Shown here: piece after piece, positions 7,101 through 46,341 of the stretch
Layout of the letters: each line of letters starts with the position of its first letter
Numbering within the stretch: position 1 is the stretch's first letter
From: Pedobacter arcticus A12
GTDB lineage: Bacteria > Bacteroidota > Bacteroidia > Sphingobacteriales > Sphingobacteriaceae
Length of the DNA: 64,000 bases
Assembly: GCF_000302595.1 (NCBI RefSeq)
Contig: NZ_JH947128.1
Span: 310,001 to 374,000 of the forward strand
Reading direction: 5' to 3'
The notes under the pieces: generated by a model
What the model was told of the DNA's origin: nothing
What the model saw: only the letters and a program-made list of their open reading frames with translations
Databases searched by the model: none
Made by a program: the position numbers and the translations under genes

Positions 7101-7351
7101 TGAATAGTTTGTTTAACAAAACCAATATAAGAAACCTCTAAACTCTTAGCATTTGCGGGAACGTTAAGCGAAAAATCACCCTTCGAATCTGTTTGAGTTC
7201 CTTGATTTGTCCCAGTTACTCTAACTGAAACACCAGGTAATGGCAAACCGTCTTCGGTAGCGGTCACCTTTCCTGTAACTCTTCTATCTTGCGCTAGCAC
7301 ACTAGATGCTATAAGCAACAAGATGAATAAACTTTGTACAAGTTTTTTCAT
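4199..7351 (-). CDS. SusC/RagA-family TonB-linked outer-membrane transporter
   Basis: 1050 residues. Order: signal peptide ending VLAQD, CarboxypepD_reg-like beta-sandwich (residues ~22-95, GKVTATEDGLPLPGVSVRVTG), TonB-box/plug region with QLNEVVVTALGIERQ and NPNDVQDISVLKGASSAAIYG, then a long 22-stranded barrel ending VRTYGFNIVAKF. It would import a ligand captured by the SusD partner using TonB energy. Unlike the second SusC in this window (52657-56013) it has no STN domain, so it is not expected to signal to an ECF sigma factor, and none is adjacent. First gene of a two-gene operon. Confidence 0.95.
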   Translation of the reverse strand: MKKLVQSLFILLLIASSVLAQDRRVTGKVTATEDGLPLPGVSVRVTGTNQGTQTDSKGDFSLNVPANAKSLEVSYIGFVKQTIQIGTRSVFNVSLANDSKQLNEVVVTALGIERQRSELGYAAATVSGETVTKASAVNVANGLQGKVSGLNVSTVSSGVFENVSINLRGIRSMTGNNNPLLVIDGIPLKIEFLSSLNPNDVQDISVLKGASSAAIYGPDARNGVILITTKKGSNKPVITVSNSVQLQQVSFFPKLQKSFGQGYDGVIDPLENWSWGPAFDGSTVDIGPELPDGSQQKVTYSGTDERQKFYDTGVTVQTDVSLSVKDFYLSLQDANVKGIVPDDENRRTSFRMNSAKEFGKFKAGANINYSQQNYSVFDDQAMSDYFSAQGTGGNDGLFDQLINTAANAPLSKYKDYKNDPFSQYNNYYCNYGLNPYFAIGNWRKNGKRQDLIANLDFSYKPTDWLNFVYRAGLTTENTANRYTSEGVVADDFGLDRGKTTVPGSIEESAYSENRLTSELFGNLTKQLDENFKLSAILGTYVRQNESRTTRVGASSLVVPGIYNVSNRIGILSGSSPGYRSRLFSVYGSAGLSYKGWANLEVTGRNDWTSLLAIGQNSYFYPGVSGSLVLSEAVEGLKSVNALSYLKLRGAWSKTGNADITPYLLASTYSQPVYTGFPYGSTPGLTAGNTFYNPNLRPEFINSTEAGFEASFFGNRVTFESTYFYQNNTDQIISINLSDATGYSRYYLNAASFINKGIEMDLNLTPLIKFKDGGIRFRANATYNDSEVTSIYKEQELNELSIGGYVDAGNYAIKGKPAFILKGTDYKRDDLGRVIVNATTGRPSADPTTKELGRTIPKWIIGLNPSVDYKNFSLSALFEHKSGHKASFYALGSDMAWTGVSEATAYNNRQPFILPNSVIRNPSVTDPASPNYYIENTTAKIGATEEMYEYYTNEFRSAASNFVVSANTWRLRELSLSYDVPQALLKNQKVLKNLTVSLVGRNLFLWLPSENKFMDPDFNSMISDYPNAFGNIDATSNPPVRTYGFNIVAKF

Positions 7352-7367
7352 ACAATTTTAAAATAAA

Positions 7368-7394
7368 GTTAATTAGTAATAGTGTTAATTAGTA
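7368..7394. repeat. 11-bp direct repeat in the SusC leader
   Basis: GTTAATTAGTA occurs at 7368-7378 and again at 7384-7394, a 16-bp period, inside the predicted 5' leader of the SusC gene. This could be a regulator site or an RNA-level feature; chance in an AT-rich region is possible. Confidence 0.5.
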
Positions 7395-7395
7395 C

Positions 7396-7428
7396 TAAAT
7401 ATACCATGTACTAAGTGTTAAAAACAAA
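7396..7428 (-). promoter_or_regulatory. candidate promoter of the SusCD operon
   Basis: On the minus strand TTTG (7428-7425), a 21-base spacer, then TATATTTA (7403-7396), one base from TAnnTTTG. It would start transcription about 40 bases before the SusC ATG. Confidence 0.45.
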
Positions 7429-7592
7429 TTAATATTTAACATTTTTTAACATTTTGACATAAATAACTCATATTCAGTATATTAAAAAATTAACAATAAA
7501 TTAGATGTTTTATATCATTTTCGTTACATATACCCCTAAGTAATTTAACAAAAACTCAACAAAAATTCAATTTTATTAACAAAATTCTAAAA

Positions 7593-7630
7593 TTAATAAA
7601 TTTGCTATGCTAACATAGTAAATTTATTAA
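7593..7630. repeat. long inverted repeat
   Basis: TTAATAAATTT-g-CTATG, loop ctaa, then CATAG-t-AAATTTATTAA: 17-bp arms with a single G-T position. It could act as an operator or an RNA hairpin; no gene adjoins it directly. Confidence 0.6.
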
Positions 7631-7975
7631 GCTATTGTTGAGTTTCTTCATTAAAATTTCCTTTAAGATAACGCTGGGTTTATAAACAAGCAGGTTTTAG
7701 AAATATACCCAAAATTCAGACGGTTATCTAACAAAACACCGTCCAAAAATTACAATCCATAGCGCTATATTATTGGATTACATGAATTGATTTTCTGTAT
7801 GTATAACCATCCCAACAGCTGGGGTAAATCCAAAAAATTTAGTATGCAAAATGCTCAGTCTAAAACCGCTAAATATGAGTGAGTTTCTCCCTAGCCACCT
7901 TTATAGAATCCCGCAACAACTCAAAAAGAAAACAGTAAAAATCTAAAGCCCCACTAAAAACATAAAATGATTTAG

Positions 7976-8014
7976 AAGCTGTTTAAATTATAATGTTATT
8001 AATTTAAACAGCTT
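7976..8014. repeat. strong 15-bp hairpin without an adjacent gene
   Basis: AAGCTGTTTAAATTA, a 9-base loop, then TAATTTAAACAGCTT: perfect 15-bp arms. It resembles a terminator stem but no gene ends nearby on either strand and the T run is weak. Confidence 0.6.
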
Positions 8015-8041
8015 GTTTATTGCCATAAAACAGGTGTCCCC

Positions 8042-8051
8042 CGCTGGCGGG
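8042..8051. repeat. left target-site duplication of the MITE-like element
   Basis: CGCTGGCGGG directly abuts the left terminal inverted repeat and recurs exactly at 8205-8214. Confidence 0.8.
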
Positions 8052-8204
8052 CAATGTCATTAAGTTAAGGAGCGTCGTCATGTCGAACGATAGGGAGACA
8101 TCTCACAAATAGGTGTCATGTTAGTATGGAAACCCTGCAAGTGAGATTTCTCGTACCTCGAAATGACGAAATGCAGAGAAAAATCTATTAACTTAATGAC
8201 ATTG
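8052..8204. mobile_element. MITE-like non-autonomous element, 153 bp
   Basis: The ends are perfect 17-bp inverted repeats, CAATGTCATTAAGTTAA at 8052-8068 and its complement at 8188-8204, flanked by an exact 10-bp direct repeat (8042-8051 and 8205-8214). Inside is a second, imperfect inverted pair (8076-8106 against 8141-8168). There is no coding capacity, so transposition would need a transposase in trans. Removing the element and one flank restores a GC-rich palindrome (CCCCCGC-TG-GCGGGGG), which supports a real insertion. A degraded relative lies at 46166-46341. Confidence 0.8.
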
Positions 8205-8214
8205 CGCTGGCGGG
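8205..8214. repeat. right target-site duplication of the MITE-like element
   Basis: CGCTGGCGGG, identical to 8042-8051, directly follows the right terminal inverted repeat. Confidence 0.8.
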
Positions 8215-8277
8215 GGCAGGGGTGGTTAGCAAAAAACAGGCAGTCTACCTTGCAAAATGCAGAACCTCCCTCTTTAT

Positions 8278-8293
8278 CTCCCTCCAGAGGGAG
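8278..8293. repeat. GC-rich extragenic palindrome
   Basis: CTCCCTC-CA-GAGGGAG, 7-bp arms with a 2-base centre. Its complement continues like the palindrome interrupted by the MITE (TGTC, arm, TG, arm, then G-rich), so the two look like inverted copies of one extragenic repeat family. Confidence 0.5.
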
Positions 8294-8480
8294 ACATTGT
8301 GTGGAACCTATAAATATAGACAAGCAAAGAAATGAGATACTATAAAAAATTCTACAACATAAATTTAAAAGTTTCTTAATATTTTCTGAGAAAACAATAA
8401 AAATCGGACTCAAAACCTGCCTTAAAACCATATTGAGGATACCTGATCTAGAAGTAATACAAAATAAATAAAAAATATTA

Positions 8481-8501
8481 GTACTATGCATTGCATAATA
8501 C
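8481..8501. promoter_or_regulatory. candidate PadR operator
   Basis: GTACTATGCA-T-TGCATAATAC: arms of 10 bp with one mismatch around a single base. It covers the TTG at 8491-8493 of the predicted promoter, as expected for autorepression by the PadR protein encoded immediately downstream. Confidence 0.55.
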
Positions 8502-8522
8502 CAACTAATACATATATCTTTG
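8491..8522 (+). promoter_or_regulatory. promoter of padR-pspC
   Basis: TTG (8491-8493), 21-base spacer, TATCTTTG (8515-8522). The -7 box ends 5 bases before the first ATG, so the transcript would be leaderless or nearly so if the ATG at 8527 is used. Confidence 0.6.
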
Positions 8523-8526
8523 TAAT

Positions 8527-8880
8527 ATGTTAGCAGATAATACTCAAACACAAATGAGGAAAGGTATTTTAGAATACTGTATCCTCACCATTATATCGCG
8601 GGGAGAAATCTACGCATCAGATATTATAGGAGAACTAAAAGAAGCAAGACTATTGATTGTGGAAGGCACTCTGTATCCGCTCCTTACTCGTTTAAAAAAT
8701 AACGGCTTGTTGGTTTACAATTGGCAGGAGTCTACTTCTGGACCACCACGTAAATATTATGAGCTGTCTGAAAGTGGCAAAGAAGTTCTTTTAAGGCTAG
8801 ACCAAACCTGGCAAGATTTAGCCTACGCAGTACAAACCACCATTAGCAAAAGAGATTTATCATCACAAAAAAAAGACTAA
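8527..8880 (+). CDS. PadR-family transcriptional regulator
   Basis: 117 residues forming a winged helix: MRKGILEYCILTIISRGEIYASDIIGELKE, then the recognition part VEGTLYPLLTRLKNNGLL and wing GPPRKYYELSESGKEVL. PadR proteins are usually repressors of neighbouring membrane-stress or efflux genes. The stop codon is 4 bases before the PspC gene, so the two form one operon, a pairing common in Bacteroidota. The palindrome upstream suggests autoregulation. An internal ATG (residue 10) is a possible alternative start given the very short distance to the promoter. Confidence 0.93.
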   Translation: MLADNTQTQMRKGILEYCILTIISRGEIYASDIIGELKEARLLIVEGTLYPLLTRLKNNGLLVYNWQESTSGPPRKYYELSESGKEVLLRLDQTWQDLAYAVQTTISKRDLSSQKKD

Positions 8881-46165: not shown

Positions 46166-46341
46166 AGGTAATGCCTTTATTTAGGGAGGTCGCGTCATGT
46201 TGAACGATAGTGAAACATCTCACAAACAGGTATGAAACACTATATGCAGACTCTGCTTGTGAGATTTATCTTCGATGAACTAACGTTTCTCGTACCTCGA
46301 AATGACGTAAAGCAGAAGAAATATACTTATTATAACGAATA
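46166..46341. mobile_element. degraded relative of the MITE-like element, between xylB and xylA
   Basis: Core segments match the element at 8052-8204: CGTCATGTTGAACGATAG with ACATCTCAC (46193-46223) and the right part TTTCTCGTACCTCGAAATGACG (46287-46307 region). The ends are only partly similar to the 17-bp terminal repeats, and an extra ~18 bases (ATCTTCGATGAACTAACG) are present on the right. No target duplication is recognisable. It is an older, non-mobile copy that fills most of the gap between the two xyl genes. Confidence 0.65.

Follow-up and report, generated by a model that had tools for sequence, protein, structure and literature searches.

The window, the whole stretch of 64,000 nucleotides of Pedobacter arcticus A12 that was analysed, contains a SusC-like gene on the minus strand (starting at 7351) and a divergent gene for a PadR-like regulator on the plus strand (8527). 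Between them lies a block of approx. 0.8 kb (7665-8478) that is rich in palindromes: AAGCTGTTTAAATTA..TAATTTAAACAGCTT at 7977-8014, a GC-rich target repeat, the insert interrupting it, and CTCCCTC..GAGGGAG near 8268-8297. The sole Rfam match, below threshold, was to the whalefall-1 RNA (25.7 bits, gathering cut-off 37) at 8263-8297 on the minus strand and coincided with the short palindromic repeat beside the insert.

Read directly from the letters, window positions 8052-8204 form a 153-bp insert with perfect 17-bp inverted ends. It is short and carries neither a transposase nor any other gene (Table 1). A preliminary description had interpreted it as a MITE with exact inverted ends, a 10-bp direct repeat abutting both of them and an imperfect inverted pair inside (CGTCATGTCGA... 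/ ...TCGAAATGACG), and all of these parts were borne out. Its in silico excision could also be reproduced, as the joined flanks of 8042-8214 gave GTGTCCCCCGCTGGCGGGGGCAGGGG, containing the GC-rich palindrome CCCCCGC-TG-GCGGGGG.

Table 1. Features of the element, of its target and of its second copy in window coordinates, and complete insertion sequences from other genomes that share its ends.
Feature	Position or length	Strand	Basis or remark
Target duplication, left copy CGCTGGCGGG	8042..8051	+	sequence; duplications in the element class most often measure 10 bp
Left terminal inverted repeat CAATGTCATTAAGTTAA(G)	8052..8068	+	sequence; same letters as the inverted repeat given for ISSsu2 in PMC10886379
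CGTC-tagged REP-like unit 1 CGTCATGTCGAACGATAGGGAGACATCTCACAAATAGG	8076..8113	+	alignment; 31 genome places match the unit-1 half
CGTC-tagged REP-like unit 2, inverted, CGTCATTTCGAGGTACGAGAAATCTCACTTGCAGG	8133..8168 (boundaries approximate)	-	sequence, alignment, pairing with unit 1
Right terminal inverted repeat (TTAACTTAATGACATTG on +)	8188..8204	-	sequence; exact reverse complement of 8052-8068
Target duplication, right copy CGCTGGCGGG	8205..8214	+	sequence
Interrupted target repeat, left part (GTGTCCCCCGCTGGCGGG...)	8034..8051	+	uninterrupted copies GTGTCCCCCGCTGGCGGGGGTTGGGGGTGG at C3:147930 and C3:157623
Interrupted target repeat, right part (...CGCTGGCGGGGGCAGGGGTGG)	8205..8227	+	uninterrupted copies GTGTCCCCCGCTGGCGGGGGTTGGGGGTGG at C3:147930 and C3:157623
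Older second copy of the element: core, left end decayed (TAATGCCTTTATTTAGG)	46193..46324 (G000:C4:356193-356324)	+	similarity search
Complete IS sharing these ends, L074	1450 bp		same-family genome
Complete IS sharing these ends, L126	1467 bp		Aquimarina; exact 10-bp duplication
Complete IS sharing these ends, L124/L175/L179	1643-1646 bp		Allobaculum; exact 10-bp duplications

Copies, empty sites and target preference

The locus was compared in same-genus relatives whose intergenic region aligns to both flanking genes. In these relatives, for example at L282, positions 7351-7664 aligned almost adjacent to approx. 8478-8529 and the 0.8-kb block was absent. The 173-bp arrangement of insert and duplications is thus not conserved among them, in support of the MITE reading. 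Because the two aligned segments lie nearly back to back, the element, the target repeat and the neighbouring palindromes were either gained in the lineage of the window or lost from the relatives.

The exact 17-bp end occurs three times in the genome, at both ends of the insert and once at the end of contig C3, and additional copies with one or two mismatches were detected. A 193-bp query gave 26 matches, itself included, several of which retain both ends. The further copies of the ends that were looked for in the genome were thus found, together with approx. 25 related copies of the element. Predicted duplications were alike in 8 of 10 bases at L013 (C2:666067) and in 9 of 10 both at L032 (C4:439227) and at L022/L006 (C2:959642), the last located inside the palindrome GCAGGGTTTCT..GAGAACCCTGC. 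In a genome of the same genus (G004) exact 10-bp duplications were found at L043, which is 86% identical, and at L061. Around the second copy in the window no duplication was recognised.

The flanks of the insert are themselves a dispersed repeat. Uninterrupted, this target repeat is present twice on contig C3, as GTGTCCCCCGCTGGCGGGGGTTGGGGGTGG and as a one-base variant, and again in other genomes of the genus. The two copies on C3 are paralogous empty sites.

For a count over many insertions, 100 distinct sites were selected by their ends alone and a duplication was scored with at most one mismatch. Duplications of 10 bp were present at 44 of these sites and of 9 bp at 20, compared with 0.8 and 0.5 expected when left and right flanks were re-paired at random. 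With 44 against 0.8, a chance origin of the 10-bp duplication at the insert is excluded. Approximately one third of the sites had no duplication, as a result of decay, recombination or wrong pairing of ends. The targets were short GC palindromes of the form CCCN3GGG / GGCN4GCC. In the 9-bp class the consensus of the duplication was symmetric (C18/C16/C17 ... G16/G16/G16 of 20), and in the 10-bp class it was GGC....GCC and weaker. Reconstructed target sites exceeded local DNA in palindromicity (P ~2e-9), and one repeat, GCCGGTATCCGC, was common to several insertion sites across three genera. Near-identical MITEs with these IS4-type ends and exact 9-10-bp duplications occupied many sites in the genome G256 (L394-L398), and likewise with the interior found in the genome G241; they are recent bursts.

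The whole insert was predicted to fold as a single very stable hairpin (-81.5 kcal/mol, z -7.4). A hairpin of this kind between divergent genes could be a chance palindrome or a structural, non-mobile one, such as a cruciform, an attenuator or a terminator. A consensus scan found neither a terminator-like nor a promoter-like site. Against a fixed structure stand the absence from syntenic relatives, the approx. 25 dispersed related copies and the duplications. On this insertion evidence a non-mobile palindrome was ruled out as the origin of the insert, and we regard that explanation as extremely improbable.

The ends and their autonomous partners

All 17 letters of the end agree with the inverted repeat of ISSsu2, an IS4-like element of Streptococcus suis for which CAATGTCATTAAGTTAA was printed as the inverted repeat and circular intermediates were detected by PCR (PMC10886379). 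Of 301 genomes of the family, 52 contained the exact 18-mer CAATGTCATTAAGTTAAG, frequently on both strands, and it was also found in numerous named genomes; the reversed 18-mer, used as a control, gave 0 matches among the genomes listed. This 18-bp end class is common to Bacteroidota, Firmicutes and others. The ends also fit the signature -AATR--------WTW---- of the IS4 subgroup, whose members make 10-13-bp direct repeats (PMC2266710).

In other genomes, pairs of the 18-bp end 1.45-1.65 kb apart bracket IS4 transposase genes. Five such complete elements are given in Table 1, and L074 is the sole one of them without an exact 10-bp duplication. The L074 transposase matched the NCBIfam model NF033592 (IS4 family) with 191.5 bits against a cut-off of 115, and also Pfam DDE_Tnp_1. 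Its translation contains Y-FR-R-WKI-E-TYFDEL-K with the spacing Y-2-R-3-E-6-K, the YREK signature by which the IS4 family is defined (PMC2266710).

The preliminary description had taken the exact ends and duplication as signs of a recent insertion, with a transposase able to act on them elsewhere in the genome, and had looked ahead to an insertion sequence with matching ends and 10-bp duplications. The latter was found in other genomes, together with its IS4-family transposase. The claim for the window's own genome held in part: one decayed transposase copy was detected (C2:625-1185, 42% identical, 5 stops), and the start of an IS, 49 bp with the same 18-bp end, forms the last bases of contig C3. 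Outside the short contigs C9-C16, several of which are IS-sized, no intact matching transposase was found. Contigs of several related genomes likewise break at 18-bp ends, as expected for multi-copy IS elements. Matches to PF01609 elsewhere in the genome (C6:58586, C6:76639, C6:78632 and C3:992516) were not tied to the 17-bp ends, and the one at C3:992516 belongs to a truncated element whose flanks are different.

That the MITE arose as an internally deleted form of the resident IS was considered and rejected, because over the 49 bp of IS start that could be compared the similarity stops after approx. 20 bp.

We concluded that window positions 8052-8204 are very probably a non-autonomous IS4-family element (MITE).

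The REP-like pair inside the element

The preliminary description had missed that the interior is a REP-like repeat pair that also occurs apart from the IS ends. The core consists of two units in inverted orientation, both starting with CGTC, with the tags pointing outward. In most of the other genomes, too, an inverted pair of REP-like palindromes fills the space between the ends. The half-unit was found at approx. 30 places in the genome (31 matches), and the exact pattern matched 8. Single units folded no better than shuffled sequences, and a stem of 8-9 bp with a loop of 4-5 bases was not found in them.

A pair of outward-tagged repeats resembles REP dimers, and the insert could have been of REP type (a REPIN) and owed its movement to a RAYT (Y1 tyrosine transposase); the 17-bp repeats and the 10-bp duplication would then be incidental. 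RAYT-like Y1 genes are present in the genome, and the one at C2:69144 adjoins two copies of the core. The palindrome directly flanking this gene and the one at C4:507440 is nevertheless GTCCAAGCAGGGTCTC... and not the CGTC core. The ends of the insert are those of IS4 elements, and 10-bp duplications are the rule at end-bearing sites, whereas RAYT or IS200-type insertion is, to our knowledge, not accompanied by a target duplication. In view of the duplications and of the other palindromes directly flanking the RAYT genes, a RAYT was rejected as the mover. It is contradicted for the whole element, for which we hold it very unlikely; for an earlier spread of the core alone it is possible.

Several observations on these genes were made alongside. 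The RAYT-like Y1 genes in L331 (G000:C2:68000-71000) and L248 (G000:C4:507440) are flanked by GTCCAAGCAGGGTCTCTCGCAGAGGACTCTGCG palindromes, and a palindrome of the GTCCAAGCAGGGTCTCTCGCAGAGGACTCTGCG type is also the insertion site of the MITE copy at C2:959642. Two more RAYT-like genes, L246 (G000:C1:760607) and L247 (G000:C2:808471), each lie beside a different palindromic array (CTCCGCTAGTGCGAGCTTGTAGCTCG and AGTTCGACATGCCCTGCGGAACATATCGAACAGC, respectively). Five copies of a Y1 transposase (L240-L244, 151-aa frames) score identically and apparently represent a recent expansion of IS200 type in the genome.

With the IS4-type ends retained as the ends of a MITE, the core copies lying free of them could be old MITE copies whose ends have decayed, and the repeat family would then be the IS4 MITE family and nothing else. 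In a scrambled-end test, remnants of an end were recognised on at least one side at 15 of 30 half-core sites of the window's genome, the others being without; several of the remnants fit an older end variant, CAATGTCATTATTTAAG. Wherever the genome has a convincing match to the end, the core also lies beside it, the IS start on C3 excepted. Since part of the core-only copies carry end remnants, some of the seemingly free REP pairs in this genome are eroded MITEs.

The genome G241 argues against extending this to all of them. It holds 28 exact 18-mer ends, and its end-bearing copies are young, with approx. 12 interiors that agree at 99-100%. A further 20 copies of the interior are diverged but have sharp edges, and a recognisable end pair was present at 0 of the 20; in the end-remnant test 4 of their 40 flanks reached the nominal 5% level. 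In this genome the REP-like pair is clearly present as a repeat of its own. Moreover, the interiors vary between genera, the same IS4 ends enclosing different repeat pairs. We therefore consider it rather unlikely that the family consists of decayed MITEs only. Occurrence apart from the ends was checked for the window's core and for the G241-type interior; the other interiors were judged to be REP-like by sequence and fold.

The folds were evaluated for 31 distinct interiors from insertions with confirmed duplications, the ends being removed before folding. A z below -3 was obtained for 25 of the 31, compared with 6% of local controls (P ~1e-12). At least 10 pairs joining the two ends were predicted for 19/31 interiors and 50/155 controls. 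A hairpin interior may help to bring the two ends of so short an element together, and these figures are no more than suggestive of such an aid to synapsis by a single hairpin.

A possible route of spread and its relation to known systems

We propose that the element would be moved in trans: a DDE transposase of the IS4 family, working by cut and paste, would bind both identical 17-18-bp ends, excise the element and insert it at a short GC-rich palindrome, where filling of the 10-bp staggered cuts would leave CGCTGGCGGG at each side. The payload would be the inverted CGTC-tagged REP-like pair, which is dispersed in the genome also where no IS ends can be recognised. In this way the IS4 ends would serve as a vehicle by which a palindromic pair that already existed is copied to new places in the genome, frequently inside other palindromic repeats. 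Which transposase moved the copy at 8052-8204, its cut-and-paste action in this host, and the capture of REPs rather than their origin as eroded MITEs are inferred.

As a single insertion this is an ordinary IS4 MITE. The weight lies in the pattern of ends and interior across genomes: one end class with GC-palindrome targets repeatedly brackets an inverted REP-like pair that varies by genus, which suggests that IS4-type ends have repeatedly captured such pairs. In a survey of REPs from 2013, CGTC elements seemed to have no dedicated transposase, and it was suggested that a wide range of transposases might mobilise them (PMC3733652). For this reason the architecture is worth following. It is a concrete, testable candidate for that idea, and carriage of REP-like pairs between IS4-type ends would be one candidate way for CGTC-tagged repeats to spread. 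Tentatively, transposases of the IS4 subgroup may even be a general carrier of REP pairs in many bacteria, above all in Bacteroidota, with a pair of the host captured, spread as a MITE and dropped into other palindromes; this wider proposal is possible, though we do not favour it over its negation. If true, the mobiliser that CGTC-type REPs seem to lack would be found in such carriers.

Foreign DNA between ends of the IS4 family is known from the MIC231 mobile insertion cassettes, in which IS231 ends are mobilised in trans and carry passenger genes. The present element resembles them in this arrangement and, as we propose, in its movement in trans, but it has no gene, its passenger is a non-coding repeat pair and its ends belong to the IS4 subgroup and not to IS231.

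The terminal inverted repeat of ISSsu2 is identical to both ends of the insert. ISSsu2, however, encodes a transposase, whereas the insert has none, contains REP-like repeats and comes from a different phylum. With the IS4 subgroup (PMC2266710) it shares the end signature, direct repeats of about 10 bp, the YREK transposase in its full-length relative and a palindromic GC target; it differs in being non-autonomous, and 9-bp repeats are also common in its end class. Its own duplication, exactly 10 bp, lies within the range of 8-13 bp, about one helix turn.

ISRm22 (PMC1525189), likewise of the IS4 family, is similar in inserting specifically into GC-rich REP palindromes. In contrast to the 153-bp element it is autonomous, was assigned 6-bp repeats and was not described with REPs inside (PMC1525189).

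The inner units differ from CGTC-tagged REPs and HH dimers (PMC3733652) in that single units do not form the defining stem-loop and pair mainly with each other. Because this stem-loop is missing we did not file them as members of the CGTC-REPs, with which they have in common the CGTC start, the inverted pairing, the outward tags and the lack of a dedicated RAYT that they directly flank.
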